Virus record (IMG/VR): IMGVR_UViG_3300025640_000065
Location: 1-22,146 of that record
Length of the DNA: 22,146 nt
DNA from: a virus
Strand: one strand, 5' to 3'
This document shows positions 1,572-21,406 of this stretch, piece after piece. The translations under genes and the position numbers were made by a program. Below the pieces are notes generated by a model that was not told where the DNA came from, made no database searches, and saw nothing but the letters and a program-made list of their open reading frames with translations. Each line of letters begins with the position of its first letter. The stretch's first letter is position 1.

Positions 1572-2516
1572 ATGAACCTTGAACCTTACAACCTGCCGCC
1601 CACGGTGCAGGCGATATTTGACCACTACAAAGCCAAGCGCAAGGACGCGCACCGCCCGCATCTCGGCGGCTCCCAGATCGGCCACGAGTGCAGCCGCGCC
1701 TTGTGGTATCAGTTTCGGCACATGGATCGGGCGACGTTTGAAGGGCGCGTGCTGCGCTTGTTTGAAACGGGCGACAGGGAGGAGGATCGCATTGTTGCAA
1801 ACCTGCGGGCCGTTGGCGTGACAGTGTGGGACCGCGATCCTGATACGGGCAGGCAGATACGCTTTACCGCGCACGACGGGCATTTCGCGTTGTCGCTGGA
1901 TGGCGTTGGCAAGGGCTTTGCGGAAAGCGGCCAGCCGCACACGCTGGAGTTCAAGACAATGAATGACAAGAACTTTAAGGCGATGGAGAACAAAGGCTGC
2001 GAGGCGACAAAGCCGGTCTATTATGCGCAATGCCAGATCGGGATGCATTTGGCCGAGATTGATCGCTGCGCTTTCATCGCCGTGAACAAGAACACCGATG
2101 CGATCTACATGGAGCGGATCAAATACGATCCGGCGATGGCACTGAAGCTGGTGGCGAAGGCTGGCGAGATTATCTTTGCGGACAAGCCCCCTGCAAAGCT
2201 GCGCAATGACCCGTCATATTTCCAGTGCAAGTTTTGCGATTACAGCGCGATTTGCCATATGGGAAAGCCGCCGGAGGTGAATTGCCGAACGTGCGCCCAT
2301 GCCACGCCTGAGCGCGGTGGTGATGGCGCTTGGTCATGCGCCAAGGGCAAGGCTTTCGGAACGTTGTGCGATGCGCACATTTTCAATCCCTATGCCATGC
2401 CATGGGAGGTGCATGACGCCAGCCCTGATTGGGTGGAGTACGTCACCGAGGACGGCGAGGTCATTCGCAACGAAGGCAACAGTCAAGAGATTGCAGATCA
2501 GTGGGTGCCGTTTTGA
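1572..2516 (+). CDS. Cas4/RecB-like PD-(D/E)XK nuclease with Fe-S-type cysteines
   Basis: A 314-aa nuclease of the PD-(D/E)XK superfamily. D110 (LSLDG) and E126-x-K128 (LEFKT) form the active-site signature, and a downstream Y-x-x-Q (YYAQ, 150-153) matches the RecB-family motif. C40 together with C219-x2-C222-x5-C228 reproduces the split four-cysteine pattern that holds the 4Fe-4S cluster in Cas4 and AddB nucleases. A second set, C238-x2-C241, C256 and C266, looks like an extra zinc site and is unusual. No CRISPR array is present, so it most likely resects DNA ends for the Sak4-like annealase. I chose the ATG at 1572 because GGAGAG lies just upstream. The ATG at 1560, four codons earlier, lacks a clear Shine-Dalgarno. 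The stop overlaps the methyltransferase start. Confidence 0.85.
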   Translation: MNLEPYNLPPTVQAIFDHYKAKRKDAHRPHLGGSQIGHECSRALWYQFRHMDRATFEGRVLRLFETGDREEDRIVANLRAVGVTVWDRDPDTGRQIRFTAHDGHFALSLDGVGKGFAESGQPHTLEFKTMNDKNFKAMENKGCEATKPVYYAQCQIGMHLAEIDRCAFIAVNKNTDAIYMERIKYDPAMALKLVAKAGEIIFADKPPAKLRNDPSYFQCKFCDYSAICHMGKPPEVNCRTCAHATPERGGDGAWSCAKGKAFGTLCDAHIFNPYAMPWEVHDASPDWVEYVTEDGEVIRNEGNSQEIADQWVPF

Positions 2517-3295
2517 TGTTACGCGTGCTTGATCTATTTAGTGGCATTGGGGGCTTCAGTCTTGGGCTTGAACGAACGGGCGGATTTGAAACCGTTGCGT
2601 TCTGCGAAATCGAGCCGTTCCCCCGCAAAGTCTTAGCTAAACACTGGCCGGAGGTGCCTTGCTATGAAGACGTCACCAAACTCACAGGCGACATTCTTAA
2701 ACGAGACGGAATTTCCGTTGATGTCATCACAGGCGGCTTCCCGTGCCAAGACATCAGCGTTGCAGGGAAGCAAGCCGGAATTGGCGAAGGAACCCGCAGT
2801 GGATTGTGGTCCGAAATTGTCCGACTTATTGGCGAGCTTAGACCCCGCTACGTCATCGTGGAGAACGTCGCAGCGCTGCTTAGTGGCCCAACTGAACAAC
2901 GAGGCGGATGGTTTGGCACAATTCTCGCAGACTTGGCCCGCTGCGGGTATGATGCGGAGTGGGAAAACATACCAGCGTCAGCCTTGGGCGCTCCCCATCG
3001 CCGCGAACGTGTCTGGATTGTTGCCTACCCCGCAAAGATCAGACGGCCCGAAATGGCATTATTCAATATCGCCCAAAATGTGCATAGAACGTGCGAAAGG
3101 TGGGCACCAAGAAATGTTGGCGCATTGGGTGGTAAAAACCTCATTGCAGACTGGCAGGAGCAATCCGGCCTTCCACTTGTGGGTGATGGGTTTCCCAACG
3201 GATCACGCATCTGTGCCGCCGCTGGCAACGCCGTAGTGCCGCAAATACCCGAACTGATCGGCAACGCAATTTTAGAAGCGGAGGCAGAAATATGA
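2516..3295 (+). CDS. C5-cytosine DNA methyltransferase (Dcm-like)
   Basis: The 259-aa protein carries the ordered C5-methyltransferase motifs. These are motif I DLFSGIGGFS (6-15, AdoMet binding), motif IV GGFPCQDIS (73-81, catalytic C77), motif VI ENV (116-118), motif VIII HRRERVWIVA (161-170), and motif X GNAVVPQI (237-244). It would transfer a methyl group from S-adenosylmethionine to cytosine C5 in phage DNA. No partner endonuclease is visible, so it is an orphan, plausibly shielding the genome from host restriction. Only about 60 residues separate motifs VIII and X, so the target-recognition region is short for the family. The ATG at 2516 overlaps the previous TGA, which suggests coupled translation. 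A second long frame is open within the gene (see 2664-3236). Confidence 0.92.
   Translation: MLRVLDLFSGIGGFSLGLERTGGFETVAFCEIEPFPRKVLAKHWPEVPCYEDVTKLTGDILKRDGISVDVITGGFPCQDISVAGKQAGIGEGTRSGLWSEIVRLIGELRPRYVIVENVAALLSGPTEQRGGWFGTILADLARCGYDAEWENIPASALGAPHRRERVWIVAYPAKIRRPEMALFNIAQNVHRTCERWAPRNVGALGGKNLIADWQEQSGLPLVGDGFPNGSRICAAAGNAVVPQIPELIGNAILEAEAEI
2664..3236 (+). other. long overlapping ORF inside the methyltransferase gene (190 codons)
   Basis: The +1 frame relative to the methyltransferase stays open for 190 codons and ends 60 bases before the methyltransferase stop. Its translation is not random-looking. It contains SSWRTSQRCL, FSQTWPAAGMMRSGKTYQ, SGLLPTPQRSDGPK and NPAFHLWVMGFPT, which resemble segments I recall from phage proteins annotated next to or within cytosine methyltransferases. 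The same DNA encodes motif VI (ENVAALL) and motif VIII in the main frame. It may be a genuine overprinted gene. It may equally be an out-of-frame reading that recurs in databases because the methyltransferase DNA is conserved. I see no strong Shine-Dalgarno before the ATG at 2664. Confidence 0.3.
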
Positions 3296-5612: not shown

Positions 5613-5640
5613 TTGCACATTGCGTTGTGGCGTGTATAAG
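5613..5640 (+). promoter_or_regulatory. sigma70-like promoter with overlapping operator half-site
   Basis: TTGCAC (5613-5618) and TATAAG (5635-5640) are separated by 16 bases and lie 35 bases before the ATG at 5675. The half-site GTGTTGC (5610-5616) overlaps the -35 box. This is one of the few non-coding gaps in the left operon, and it opens the accessory gene block. Confidence 0.5.
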
Positions 5641-5654
5641 GGATGCACGAATAG

Positions 5655-5675
5655 CAAATGAAGGAAACGAACCAA
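5655..5675 (+). repeat. 21-bp ribosome-binding leader, copy 1
   Basis: This sequence, containing ATGAAGGAAACGAACCAA, sits directly before the ATG at 5675 and supplies the AAGGAA Shine-Dalgarno. It is identical to 6298-6318 in front of the 6320 gene. Confidence 0.75.
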
Positions 5676-6295
5676 TGAGCACTATTTTTTCACAGTCCGA
5701 CGCCGCCGAACGCATCATGGCTGCAAATCTTAAATCTGGATCATGGGGCGGCTCAGAAGCCGTCTGCATGATGTCCGCACTGGTTTCAGGGGCTAAGTCC
5801 GCCGACGACTGCGTGACTGCTGGTTGGCCGAAATGGCTGGCCCGCCTCAACGTTTCATTGTTTGACGCCAATGTCGGTGCTGACGACGAGGACGCCGCCC
5901 GTCGTCAATTTGCGATGGATGTCGCTCTTGCTGTCCAGACGCCCCGTGACATGGACAAAGCGCGCGATCTGTTTTTGATTGCAACCCTTGAACGTTCGAA
6001 GGTTCACGACACTACCGGGGTCACGCAGCCTGTCATTGATCTGCTGCACCGGCGCATTGCGGGCGAAGACGTGCGTGACGAGATGGAAGTTGCCCGTGCC
6101 GCCGCCGATGCCGCCTATGCTGCCGCCCGTGCCGCCGCCCGTGCCGCCTATGCTGCCGCCCGTGCCGCCGCCTATGCTGCCGCCCGTGCCGCCGATGCCG
6201 CCGCCTATGCTGCCGCCTATGCTGCCCATGCCGCTCGTGCCGACGCCGCCTATGCCGCCCGTGCCGATCTAGTAGCGGCGTTGAACGCGTCATAA
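5675..6295 (+). CDS. phage protein with alanine-rich repeat tail (206 aa)
   Basis: Residues 1-139 form a globular part with a GWPKWLARLNVSLFD segment (around 50-64), an acidic DDEDAARRQF stretch, and PRDMDKARDLFLIATLE (around 90-106). Residues 140-198 are a low-complexity tail of AA(R/Y/D/H)-type triplets that should form one long helix. I recall similar phage proteins that combine a WLxxLN/RDMDxARDLFL core with Ala repeats, but their function is unknown to me. The start at 5675 follows AAGGAA. An upstream in-frame ATG at 5627 would lie within the promoter region and is less likely. It is the first gene after the 5613-5640 promoter. Confidence 0.8.
   Translation: MSTIFSQSDAAERIMAANLKSGSWGGSEAVCMMSALVSGAKSADDCVTAGWPKWLARLNVSLFDANVGADDEDAARRQFAMDVALAVQTPRDMDKARDLFLIATLERSKVHDTTGVTQPVIDLLHRRIAGEDVRDEMEVARAAADAAYAAARAAARAAYAAARAAAYAAARAADAAAYAAAYAAHAARADAAYAARADLVAALNAS
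6092..6267 (+). repeat. GCC-rich imperfect tandem repeat encoding the Ala-rich tail
   Basis: About 175 bases are built from shuffled units such as GCTGCCGCCCGTGCCGCC and GCCGCCTATGCT. The codon boundaries are kept, so unit gains or losses would leave the reading frame intact. The opposite strand is Gly-rich only because it is the complement of these codons. Confidence 0.85.
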
Positions 6296-17816: not shown

Positions 17817-18427
17817 GCTGCCTCCATTGCGCTGAAGCTGATGCCGTATTGCGCCACGTCAGCATTCCAACCCGTCACATTTTCGGCCAAGCGAAAACGG
17901 CCAACGGCGTTTGCCACGACAACGCTGCTCGATCTTGTCCCGCGCACGGCTGGCCATACATCCAGCGTCGCGTTGCCAGAGACATCAGTGTCAACGTCCA
18001 CCAGAACCTTGTGCAGCGTTGCCGTAGCAGCCGCCCCAAGCTGGATGTAGTCGCCAGCCAAAAGCCAGCCCGTTTGGCTAACCGCCGCACCCGTGACGGA
18101 TATTGTGCTGCCCGTTTGATCCGTGATGATTGGCGTGCCGGGTGCTGCCGATGCCGTCCCTCTTGGCACACACCCATTCGGATCGCCAAGCAGGAACGTC
18201 CCAGCCTGCCCGTTTAGGGATAACAGAAAAGCGTTCCACTGCTCTGCGGCTGTGCGGCGCATGGGCGGCAGCGTGATGTCGGCCTCCCACATCTGGCCCG
18301 CGTATTGGTGCGCCTGCCCCGCAAAGGTAAACGGCGACATGCTATAGGCCACCGCGTTTCTGGCCCGAAAGCTGACGCTGCGAATGCCCGTGTGCGCTGG
18401 CAGGGCGAGGGGATACGTGATTGCCAT
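17813..18427 (-). CDS. distal tail-like protein (204 aa)
   Basis: The protein shows a known siphophage pattern. YPLALPAHTGIRSVSFRARN is near the start, then SPFTFAGQAHQYAGQMWEAD and ITLPPMRRTAAEQWNAFLLS, then LNGQAGTFLLGDPNG (around 71-85) and a C-terminal strand-rich domain ending in SFSAMEAA. Homologous proteins sit directly after the tape measure and probably form the ring that joins tail tube and tip. The start overlaps the tape measure stop (TAATG). Confidence 0.8.
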   Translation of the reverse strand: MAITYPLALPAHTGIRSVSFRARNAVAYSMSPFTFAGQAHQYAGQMWEADITLPPMRRTAAEQWNAFLLSLNGQAGTFLLGDPNGCVPRGTASAAPGTPIITDQTGSTISVTGAAVSQTGWLLAGDYIQLGAAATATLHKVLVDVDTDVSGNATLDVWPAVRGTRSSSVVVANAVGRFRLAENVTGWNADVAQYGISFSAMEAA

Positions 18428-20388
18428 TATCCGAAGGACCTTCCGTAAGAGCCGCCGCGCAGCTTGGCGTCCGCCACCGCAGCTTTCGTCGCCTCAACCA
18501 TCTTGGGCAGCATCGCGGTAACCTCCGCTCGGCTGACGCCTGAGCCGAATGTGTTGTTCTGAATGACAGTGACGCCACCGCCGCCGGATGACATTGCGTT
18601 GTTCGTCTGCCCTGCGCTCAATATCCGCCCGTTGACTTGCGGCACGAACAATTCTCGGCCATGCTCTCCGGTGATGTAGGGCTTGCCTGCCTGAACGCTG
18701 CCGCCCGACGCCTGCCCCGTGATGGGCGCGCCACCTCCGCCGATAGCCCCGAACACGCTGCCCAGAATGCCGCCACCGCCGCTGCTGAAACTGCCGACAA
18801 GCTGCTGCACGACCAAAACCCGAAACAACTCTTTGATGATTTCAGACGCCATTGACTTGAAGGCATCTCCGGCGCTTTGCGTGCCATCAATCATTGACAT
18901 GAATGCGTCCTCCATGCTGGCCTCGACGGTGCTCATTGTGCTTCTTAAATTCTCAGCGTCAAAGCCAAGAGCTTGAAGGGCAGGGGAGCCGTTGATTATG
19001 GCACCAAACATATCCTCAAACGACTGAGTGGCATTTTGCGCAGAACGCGCGGTTGATGCTGTGGTGCTTGCAGCGGCCTGCATCGGTGTAAGTATTTTTG
19101 ACGCCGAAATAGCTGCCTGCTCATAGTTCTCGCCAATCTGTTCAATATCTTGGCGCAGTTCTGCTGTGACCTCTCTGCCGCTCGCCTCAATATCAGCAAT
19201 AATTTGAGCCTCTTTTCGCATGCGCTCTGTGGCAATGCGCTGCCGCTCTCGTTCCTCTGCTGACAACTTGTTGAGTTCGGCCTGTTCGCGGAGTTCTTTT
19301 GTTTCTGCGCTAATTCCCTCAATTCCTGAAACAGCGCGTCCTTCAGCCGCCTTTTCAGCGTTGCGGCGCGCAATCGCTTGCTGAAGATTGTCTTCTGCTT
19401 TGGTAAGTTTTGAAAGCCAACTTGCAGCCTGCTCACTTGCTTCGCCGTATTTCTCGACATTGGCGTTGTAAGCTGCCTGCGCCTGCGTCACGGCGCTAAG
19501 TTCGCTTTCAAGACCCTCATATTCCTCGACCAAGTTGCGCAACCCAGTTGCATCAAGAGGTTCGTCAGATAGCCGGTTACGAAGGTCCAAAAACCTATTG
19601 ACCGCTTGTGAGACTGTGGCAATCCCTTCCGCAGCCTTCACAATCAAAGGTGACAAGTTGATCAGCGCAGTGCTCAAATTCGCATTGATGACGCGCGACA
19701 TCAAGTCAAGCTGCGTCTGCGCCTCCTCAGCATTGCGGATCATATCCTCGTCAATAACAATGCCAAGTTCGCGCGCCTCGCGCCGCATCGCCTCCATGCC
19801 ATCCCGGCCTTCGCGCAGCATGTTGATCATCGCAACACCCTCGCGGCCAAACAAGCCAGCCGCAAGAGCCGCTTTGCGCGTCGGGTCTTCAACCTTTTGC
19901 ATTTCCTCAGAAATGCGCATAACCGCTTCATCAAGGCCAACGCGCCGCAATTCATCCGCGCTCAGGTTCAATTCATCAAGCGCTTTTTTCGCTGCGCCCG
20001 TTCCCATTGACGCCTCACCCAACCGCTTTGAAAAGCGTTCAAGGCTGCTATCCAGCTTGGCCTGAGATACGCCAGAACTTTCGGCAATCGCTCGGAACTC
20101 TTGCAGCGCATCAGTCGTCAAGCCAATTTGATCAGCCTTTTTGCCAATCTCATCTAGCTGCTCAGTCACCCGACGAACAGCCGCGACAACCGCCGTTGCG
20201 GACAGTGCAGGCAAAAACGCTGCCGAAGCCAAAGACAACCTTTTGAAGCCTGCCGAAACCGATCCAAGACTTTTATTGGACTTCCTCGCAAAATGCTCAA
20301 CCCGTTTCTGGTTTCGCTCCATTGCCTTCGCAAACTCTTTATCCCGGGCGGATAAAATGATGTTCAGTTGTTCAGCACTAACGGCCAT
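18427..20388 (-). CDS. tape measure protein (653 aa)
   Basis: It begins SAEQLNIILSARDKEFAKAM, typical for tape measures, with a hydrophobic segment near residues 52-70 (LASAAFLPALSATAVVAAV). Long coiled-coil stretches run to about 450, and the C-terminal region is Gly-rich with GEHGRELFVPQ (574-584), the conserved tape-measure end motif. It sets tail length and is ejected during infection. At roughly 1.5 angstrom per residue the tail would be near 100 nm, by general scaling. The start at 20388 overlaps the preceding chaperone frame by 11 bases. Confidence 0.92.
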   Translation of the reverse strand: MAVSAEQLNIILSARDKEFAKAMERNQKRVEHFARKSNKSLGSVSAGFKRLSLASAAFLPALSATAVVAAVRRVTEQLDEIGKKADQIGLTTDALQEFRAIAESSGVSQAKLDSSLERFSKRLGEASMGTGAAKKALDELNLSADELRRVGLDEAVMRISEEMQKVEDPTRKAALAAGLFGREGVAMINMLREGRDGMEAMRREARELGIVIDEDMIRNAEEAQTQLDLMSRVINANLSTALINLSPLIVKAAEGIATVSQAVNRFLDLRNRLSDEPLDATGLRNLVEEYEGLESELSAVTQAQAAYNANVEKYGEASEQAASWLSKLTKAEDNLQQAIARRNAEKAAEGRAVSGIEGISAETKELREQAELNKLSAEERERQRIATERMRKEAQIIADIEASGREVTAELRQDIEQIGENYEQAAISASKILTPMQAAASTTASTARSAQNATQSFEDMFGAIINGSPALQALGFDAENLRSTMSTVEASMEDAFMSMIDGTQSAGDAFKSMASEIIKELFRVLVVQQLVGSFSSGGGGILGSVFGAIGGGGAPITGQASGGSVQAGKPYITGEHGRELFVPQVNGRILSAGQTNNAMSSGGGGVTVIQNNTFGSGVSRAEVTAMLPKMVEATKAAVADAKLRGGSYGRSFG

Positions 20389-20572
20389 CGACTTTCTCCA
20401 CCAGTTTGCGATATTGATCAGCAGTCATCGCGTCCTCGCCAGGCTTCTTGGGTGAGTGTGCATCGGACCACCCCTCAAAAACAAGCCAAGCATCTTTCGG
20501 GATCATATCACGAATTTCATCAGGCTTTAACCCCGCGACGATCCCGTTCTTAATCATGTTGCGGACGTTCAT
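20378..20572 (-). CDS. T-like second frame of tail chaperone (64 codons)
   Basis: Reads MNVRNMIKNGIVAGLKPDEI, then RDMIPKDAWLVFEGWSDAHS and a basic end. It lies between the chaperone and tape measure genes and overlaps the latter. Its ATG overlaps the short product's stop (ATGA), so independent translation by reinitiation is possible. Expression as the tail of the frameshift fusion is more in keeping with siphophage biology. Confidence 0.65.
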   Translation of the reverse strand: MNVRNMIKNGIVAGLKPDEIRDMIPKDAWLVFEGWSDAHSPKKPGEDAMTADQYRKLVEKVDGR

Positions 20573-20943
20573 CCGCTTTGGGATAGGTCCGCTGTCTTTT
20601 TTTTTGAGGCTTCATCCGTTGCGTCAGGCATAAACGCAATTCCCAAGACAGCCTGCGCCACCTGAAACAAGCGCATCAAATCCGCTGGCGTTGAACGTGC
20701 AAGAACCTTGTCAGCGTCATGGTCCTTCATGCCGCCACCAACAAGGGCCAGCGCCAGAATATCCCGCACCTCGGTGCTTGTTGGCTTTGTGCCGCGCCCA
20801 AAAAAGCCTTCCCAAAGATCAAAAATCCCTCGGTGCTTATCCTCGAAACGCTCAATCTCACGATTGCGCAATACAAACGTGTAAGAGGTGTCGTCGATAT
20901 ACTCAACGACACCCCCACGCGGCGCTTCTGCCGTGATCGCCAT
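20378..20943 (-). CDS. tail assembly chaperone fusion made by -1 frameshifting (188 aa predicted)
   Basis: The upstream chaperone frame reaches TCA AAA AAA AAG. A -1 slip there continues without a stop as DSGPIPKR into the 64-codon frame, ending just inside the tape measure gene. The join gives 116 + 8 + 64 residues. This is the G/GT arrangement of lambda-type phages, in which the minor fusion product recruits the tape measure and the major short product chaperones tube protein. Positions and frame direction all agree. Frequency cannot be told from sequence. Confidence 0.75.
20569..20943 (-). CDS. tail assembly chaperone, GTA_gp10-like (124 aa)
   Basis: Contains YTFVLRNREIERFEDKHRGI (residues 21-40), FDLWEGFFGRGTKPTSTEVR (41-60) and DILALALVGGGM (61-72), the pattern of the GTA gp10/TAC family in which a small helical protein counts substrate or tube partners. 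It ends in ASKKKTADLSQSG, where the Lys codons form the slippery run. It is the frequent, short chaperone product. Its gene follows the tail tube gene, whose stop overlaps this start (TAATG). Confidence 0.85.
   Translation of the reverse strand: MAITAEAPRGGVVEYIDDTSYTFVLRNREIERFEDKHRGIFDLWEGFFGRGTKPTSTEVRDILALALVGGGMKDHDADKVLARSTPADLMRLFQVAQAVLGIAFMPDATDEASKKKTADLSQSG
20596..20602 (-). promoter_or_regulatory. slippery site A AAA AAG for -1 ribosomal frameshifting
   Basis: On the minus strand nine A residues (20605-20597) are followed by G. In the chaperone frame this reads TCA AAA AAA AAG, giving the canonical heptamer A AAA AAG. The -1 frame from here is open into the 20378-20572 frame. I did not find an obvious strong stem downstream within the first few bases. 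Confidence 0.75.
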
Positions 20944-21368
20944 TATGCCGCCGTGAACGCGATGACGCCGGTGCTTTCAAGGCTGACGCTGTATGTCACG
21001 CCGCCCTCAGTTTCGCCGCCGAACTCAAGCGTCGTCAAACGGAACGCGCCCGCATAAGTGCCAAAGTCTGGCACAACGATCTGAAAGTTTGCCGAATTGT
21101 CAGCCCCCATTGCGACGGTATTGGCCCGCGCCTCGGCAGTGCTGTCCTCAAAAAAGCCATCGCCAGATACAGACACGTTTTTGAGCCCCGCAAGCGTTTC
21201 GGTCCACAAGGCACCTTCTGGCGATGTGCAATCAGGCGTTGTCACATCAATCGAGGAGTTGTTGATCGTGAGCGTCTTGCTGTTCAAACCGCAAAGGTTT
21301 GCAAATGCTTCTGCCACTTCGCCGTCGCCGATCTTGACCAGCAGGGCGCGTCCGAGTTGTTTAGCCAT
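20943..21368 (-). CDS. major tail tube protein (141 aa)
   Basis: Begins MAKQLGRALLVKIGDGEVAE and contains LCGLNSKTLTINNSSIDVTT (around 24-43), GLKNVSVSGDGFF and a beta-rich C-terminus with TLEFGGETEGGVTYSVSLES. This is the TP901-1/GTA gp9-type tail tube pattern, and it is followed by the chaperone and tape measure genes. It would polymerise into the tail tube. A GGAGG lies seven bases before the ATG at 21368. The ATG at 21380 has none and would contain that Shine-Dalgarno. Confidence 0.9.
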   Translation of the reverse strand: MAKQLGRALLVKIGDGEVAEAFANLCGLNSKTLTINNSSIDVTTPDCTSPEGALWTETLAGLKNVSVSGDGFFEDSTAEARANTVAMGADNSANFQIVVPDFGTYAGAFRLTTLEFGGETEGGVTYSVSLESTGVIAFTAA

Positions 21369-21406
21369 ATCGGCCTCCATAAAGAGCGCTTGCCCAGAGC
21401 GCGGGT

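Follow-up and report, generated by a model that had tools for sequence, protein, structure and literature searches.

Conserved nine-adenine slip sites between the tail chaperone frames G and T of marine phages suggest a part for RNA polymerase slippage beside ribosomal frameshifting

The G and T frames of the tail module

The locus lies on the minus strand of a 22-kb marine phage record, which we analysed over positions 1-22,146 (the whole stretch of DNA, hereafter the window; Table 1). Two overlapping frames, the second in -1 relative to the first, are placed between the tail tube and tape measure genes, which is the arrangement of lambda-type G/GT pairs. The first frame encodes G, whose match to PF11836 (GTA gp10; E=5.6e-8, 33.2 bits) lies above the curated cut-off of 27.8 and is accompanied by a match to phrog_8985 (1.2e-9); PF11836 was also matched by 11 of 11 diverse G relatives. 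The second frame, T, found no family match of its own in the family scans. Among 11 aligned relatives, four have a T that matches PF09550 (Phage_TAC_6; best E 6e-6), and through them the assignment of the window domain as T-like, probably of the PF09550 type, is supported. A sequence-only reading of this DNA had described a GTA_gp10-like chaperone linked to a T-like tail, and the family matches bear out that description. AlphaFold gave a confident model for G (pLDDT 85.8) and a modest one for T (pLDDT 78, pTM 0.45). Comparison of the G model with the PDB by Foldseek and VIA-align returned no meaningful match, and sequence searches of the PDB found nothing.

Table 1. Features of the G-T locus and of two further regions of the window.
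Feature	Position	Strand	Evidence
Major tail (tube) protein, directly upstream of G	20943..21380	-	PF06199 1.8e-26; phrog_1407 3.6e-34
G, tail assembly chaperone, 124-aa zero-frame product	20569..20943	-	PF11836 Phage_TAC_11; phrog_8985
Slip site, nine A's and G (TCA AAA AAA AAG)	20596..20605	-	conserved in 92/92 distinct window-clade slip regions
T, -1 frame domain, 72 codons after the slip (DSGPIPKRMNVR...KVDGR) and stop	20378..20596	-	T HMM in relatives
Overlap read in both frames, -1 reading conserved (G-P-x-P-x-R-L)	20569..20596	-	column entropies
ATGA stop/start overlap, not conserved	20569..20572	-	ATG in 1/90 relatives
Tape measure protein, directly downstream, overlaps the end of T	18427..20388	-	phrog_9483 7e-45
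C5 cytosine methyltransferase gene	2429..3295	+	PF00145 1.5e-43
190-aa ORF inside the methyltransferase gene, +1 frame	2664..3236	+	phrog_1008 6.8e-19
222-aa ORF with Ala/Tyr/Arg repeat	5627..6295	+	

The 3' end of G on the minus strand reads GCC TCA AAA AAA AAG ACA GCG GAC CTA TCC CAA AGC GGA TGA. The nine A's occupy 20605-20597 and are followed by G20596; two heptamers stand here in register, A AAA AAA (20605-20599) and A AAA AAG (20602-20596), and the zero-frame stop is at 20571-20569. Read in -1 from G20596, the same strand gives DSGPIPKR, then MNVR and onward to a stop at 20380-20378. G through AAG accounts for 116 codons and the -1 part for 72, a total of 188 aa plus stop. The sequence-only reading had noted TCA AAA AAA AAG near the end of the chaperone frame, a stop-free -1 passage through DSGPIPKR into a 64-codon frame (20572-20378), and a fused frame of 189 codons; inspection of the strand and its translation confirm all three.

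Conservation of the frame switch among relatives

Scanning viral contigs with the G protein returned 284 close relatives. We fetched 80 of them and built up a diverse set by alignment-based and distant-member scans and by genome searches. Profile models of the G and T domains found both at 333 loci, a number that includes some contigs fetched repeatedly and corresponds to 150 distinct slip regions. T lies in -1 relative to G at 327 of the 333 loci, in the same frame at two and in +1 at four, the last coming from two contigs with an 8-A run. All 92 distinct relatives in the window clade carry NNA AAA AAA AAG/AAC with T open in -1. This shared possession of run and open frame means that the arrangement in the window is not due to chance, and, judged from sequence conservation, the programmed -1 frame switch between G and T is real. 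Both elements on which the sequence-only reading had relied, the A-run and the -1 opening, are thus kept in 92 of 92 distinct window-clade relatives, and its likening of the locus to lambda G/GT stands as regards a programmed -1 switch with a slip site near the 3' end of G.

The two loci with both domains in a single frame are natural fusions: gp16 of Rhodobacter phage RcapNL (190 aa) and contig L143, in which the DNA itself has ten A's, as one extra A would give. RcapNL was the sole match in the phage collection, where we found no cultured phage with a nine-A site; a plasmid search gave no match.

Several relatives depart from the common pattern. The 8-A runs of L064/L103/L215 and L146 and the ten A's of L143 stem either from sequencing errors in the homopolymer or from genuine replication slippage. 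In L312, whose sequence is identical to that of L301, the site reads TCA AAA AAA AAG TGA, so that G ends right at the slip site. L302 and L303 have T in -1 yet no recognisable slip site; in L302 a possible CTG start is preceded, at a distance of a few bases, by AGAGGGG, which may point to separate initiation. L305 and L306, with weak GTA gp10-type matches, seem by eye to have a T-like stretch in the same frame and may be further natural fusions.

Within the window clade, translation of the overlap from the run to the zero-frame stop is better conserved in -1 than in the zero frame. The -1 residues follow G-P-x-P-x-R-L, with column entropies of 0.24-0.58 bit at the best positions, and the zero-frame residues over the same bases vary (1.26-2.74 bit). 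These columns also bear on the idea that there is no programmed fusion, and that G and a 64-aa protein are made separately, with reinitiation at the ATGA overlap giving rise to the latter. Such an overlap is truly present in the window. Only the window, however, has an ATG there (1 of 90); nearly all the others have a leucine codon at that position, and in 68 of 90 neither ATG nor GTG nor TTG occurs from the run up to the conserved NVR motif. Reinitiation can thus not be the route that the relatives have in common, and we rejected it as such. Conserved GPxPxR residues lie upstream of the window ATG, and reinitiation in the window would yield a T lacking its conserved start. Since naturally fused versions exist as well, we regard separate products as highly improbable. 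Of the competition between reinitiation and frameshifting that had been envisaged for this locus, the overlap itself is borne out, and the case for its use is weakened by its absence from relatives.

Two classes of slip site

At 85% identity of G, the 150 distinct slip regions fall into 74 clusters. Of these, 56 have nine A's, distributed over phase 0 (AAA AAA AAA N; 21 clusters), phase 1 (NAA AAA AAA ANN; 5) and phase 2 (NNA AAA AAA AAG/C, the window type; 30). Counted by region, 131 of the 150 distinct -1 regions have nine A's and most of the others are short-class sites. Ten A's with the -1 arrangement occur in one cluster and eight in none. Short clusters have six A's (seven clusters) or seven (four clusters), all in the A AAA AAG register; another four clusters have G GGA AAG or G GGA AAC instead of an A-run, and two have no recognisable site. 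Short sites thus obey the ribosomal heptamer register, and nine-A sites occupy all three registers.

Each phase bears on how the length of the run is held. Window-type sites have TCA, GTA, GCA, TTA, ATA or ACA just ahead of the three lysine codons, which is a choice of six different amino acids but an A at the end in 92 of 92 cases, against only 15% A at third positions of the same genes; site sequences share ancestry, so probabilities based on independent draws are not to be taken literally here. The third lysine codon of these sites is never AAA, which would give ten A's. In phase 0, a synonymous change from AAA to AAG would produce the more shift-prone heptamer A AAA AAG with 8 A's; it was never seen, and the other Lys codons of phase-0 genes are 69% AAG. 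All five phase-1 clusters have one A more than the heptamer A AAA AAA needs. It is evidently the number nine, independent of codon register, that the nine-A sites conserve. On a tree of G that is poorly resolved at many of its forks, the two site classes are intermingled, and parsimony calls for at least 10-12 changes.

Stimulatory elements and host tRNA

The two classes also differ in the sequence upstream of the slip site, in an exploratory contrast that includes only four tree-independent pairs, too few to test. Pairing with the anti-Shine-Dalgarno sequence reaches a peak of about -6.7 kcal/mol in the short class at a spacer of 5-8, where the nine-A class has about -2. The minimum over spacers 2-13 is -7.3 in the short class versus -4.3 in the nine-A class (p=4e-4), and three control stretches further upstream show no class difference (p>0.6). 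Compared with control stretches of the same class, short sites show enrichment (p=0.005) and nine-A sites do not (p=0.54); with a fixed threshold, a Shine-Dalgarno-like element is present at 12 of 15 short sites versus 16 of 40 nine-A sites (p=0.014). These values lend support, short of proof, to the view that the element would mark the short class and not nine-A sites as a class. Upstream pairing in the window is only -3.3 kcal/mol.

Downstream RNA structure was rejected as a shared stimulator, being weak in both classes (mean folding z of -0.56 in the nine-A class and -0.64 in the other); a locus identical to the window has a z of -1.86.

A pattern search of 14 genomes found tRNA-Lys with only the UUU anticodon in 13, the G carriers apart from bin G001; in G001 alone, whose title names an archaeal bin, CUU is present too. 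E. coli too has only tRNA-Lys(UUU). A host with this tRNA alone permits, or favours, ribosomal slippage, and the argument made for Thermus, with host tRNA-Lys(CUU) as the cause of a non-ribosomal route, was rejected on these counts. We likewise rejected ribosome sliding on iterated AAA: A9 or A10 gave little product in vitro (PMC4363877), and phase-1 sites have only two AAA codons.

Which enzyme slips

We propose that the nine-A run at 20605-20597 serves as a programmed -1 frame switch. A majority of messages would yield the 124-aa G and a minority the 188-aa GT, which runs on from G into the -1 frame T domain. If roles are as in lambda, coating of the tape measure protein would fall to G and recruitment of tail tube subunits to GT. 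In the nine-A class, RNA polymerase would at least partly be responsible, by adding one A, so that ten A's place T in frame with G; in the window, -1 ribosomal slippage on A AAA AAG or A AAA AAA would offer a parallel route. Relatives with 6-7 A's and a G, or with GGGAAAG, would rely on the ribosome alone, aided by the upstream Shine-Dalgarno-like element. We think it probable, with appreciable doubt, that the nine-A switch makes G and GT in this way, at least in part by transcriptional slippage and with the ribosome acting in parallel in the window.

Runs of about nine A's or T's cause efficient slippage of bacterial RNA polymerases (PMC1088944, PMC5009743), and in the coding sequences of many bacteria selection against slippage becomes visible once runs reach nine (PMC1088944). 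Because the relatives conserve the nine-A length in any codon register, RNA polymerase slippage is indicated, as well as ribosomal slippage or instead of it; both the conserved run length (56 clusters) and the use of phases 0, 1 and 2 are those of 9A-type transcriptional slippage. The same conservation alters one claim of the sequence-only reading, that the slip takes place at A AAA AAG. That heptamer is present, and in the window it follows the ribosomal pattern X XXY YYZ in the zero-frame register, but the ribosome need not be what slips on it. Against a transcriptional part stands the fact that any nine-A run holds an in-register A AAA AAA, to which the window adds A AAA AAG.

On a purely ribosomal account the polymerase copies nine A's faithfully, and the run is kept because it supplies two tandem heptamers, A AAA AAA and A AAA AAG, for -1 frameshifting. 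The canonical heptamer in register in the window, the AAG or AAC that follows in all phase-2 sites, and hosts with a single tRNA-Lys(UUU) agree with this account, and relatives with 6-7 A's and G or with GGGAAAG/C can hardly work otherwise. T is moreover nearly always in -1, with the +1 arrangement confined to four loci on two contigs with 8 A's. A single shift direction among relatives has been taken as a sign of ribosomal shifting, shifts in two directions being a heuristic for transcriptional slippage that is not obligatory (PMC3711429); a fixed -1 direction could also follow if slippage mostly adds one A. What the purely ribosomal account leaves unexplained is the absence of 8-A sites with A AAA AAG (0 sites), the failure of phase-0 sites ever to adopt AAG, the surplus A of phase-1 sites, and the association of the upstream Shine-Dalgarno element with the short class. 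We hold it to be plausible but rather doubtful. The site classes, the stimulator contrast and a dnaX-like alternation together lead us to rank transcriptional slippage, alone or with the ribosome, above the ribosome alone in the window.

The run might instead be a hot spot for phase variation, where replication slippage among 8, 9 and 10 A's toggles GT in the population. Contigs with 8 A's (L064/L103/L215, L146) and with ten (L143) do exist, but these lengths are rare and may be homopolymer sequencing errors, and the 131 of 150 distinct regions with nine A's, the remainder being mostly short-class, speak against toggling. A tail chaperone would also be an odd target, and we give this idea very little credence.

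Returning to transcriptional slippage in the nine-A class, we suggest more tentatively, as a matter on which the balance is slightly unfavourable, that RNA polymerase slippage at nine A's repeatedly replaced, or was replaced by, ribosomal frameshifting, in which case transcription and not translation would set the G:GT ratio in the majority of these phages of Alphaproteobacteria.

Relation to known systems

A -1 frame switch in tail assembly chaperones, as in lambda G/GT, is textbook knowledge; it counts among the classic cases of translational recoding, for which the ribosome is generally held responsible. The new part here is the pair of slip-site classes, with conservation of nine-A length. 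Lambda-type G/GT was described by Levin 1993 and Xu 2004 (reviewed in PMC5009743). For Rhodobacter phages, too, the usual translational frameshift in tail chaperone genes has been noted (PMC8601537). Our search of open-access papers found no report of a tail assembly chaperone using transcriptional slippage.

The present locus shares with lambda the order tail tube, G, T, tape measure, the overlapping frames, and a -1 switch near the 3' end of G that, as predicted from sequence, would give a short product and a longer fused one. It differs in having no sequence match to lambda G or T in family scans, with a PF11836 G and a T probably of PF09550 type instead, and in that its commonest site is a nine-A run in any register and not only a heptamer. 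G belongs to the GTA gp10 family, like RcGTA-type g10/g10.1; at a GTA-like locus (L308) a T-like stretch lies in the -1 frame without an A-run. RcapNL gp16 has the same G and T domains as the window but, unlike it, carries both in one frame without a shift.

The nearest parallel for the two site classes is dnaX, which uses nine A's and RNA polymerase in Thermus thermophilus and A AAA AAG, stimulators and the ribosome in E. coli (PMC5009743). Here too, one gene family would reach the same end by a ribosomal heptamer or a nine-A polymerase slip. The gene is a different one, the shift makes the longer product, and the alternation (at least 10-12 putative switches) is read from one poorly resolved phage gene tree. 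Conserved nine-A runs also join two frames in IS elements and other genes with 9A/9T slippage (PMC1088944, PMC3711429); those are transposase and bacterial genes, unlike the tail chaperone considered here.

Should the nine-A class prove transcriptional, closely related phages would arrive at one essential assembly ratio by way of two machines, a natural experiment on how slippage by the polymerase and by the ribosome replace each other. A gene finder that searches for heptamers alone would then misread the mechanism. The phages concerned are common in marine metagenomes, as the number of close relatives returned by a single scan attests.

Other observations in the window

Two regions outside the tail module deserve mention (Table 1). 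The 222-aa ORF contains a long low-complexity Ala/Tyr/Arg repeat (AAYAARAAA...) and has no family match in PHROGs. The 190-aa ORF is nested entirely within the C5 cytosine methyltransferase gene, in its +1 frame. The phrog_1008 match recurs in the +1 frame of the annotated methyltransferase of three distant phages, Sulfitobacter phiGT1, Microbacterium vB_MoxS-R1 and Synechococcus S-H1, where the ORFs have 185-219 open codons and a shared motif (for instance SWRTSQ / SWKTSQ ... GMMRSG / GLMRNG ... MGFP). The ORF thus looks like a conserved, usually unannotated overlapping gene.
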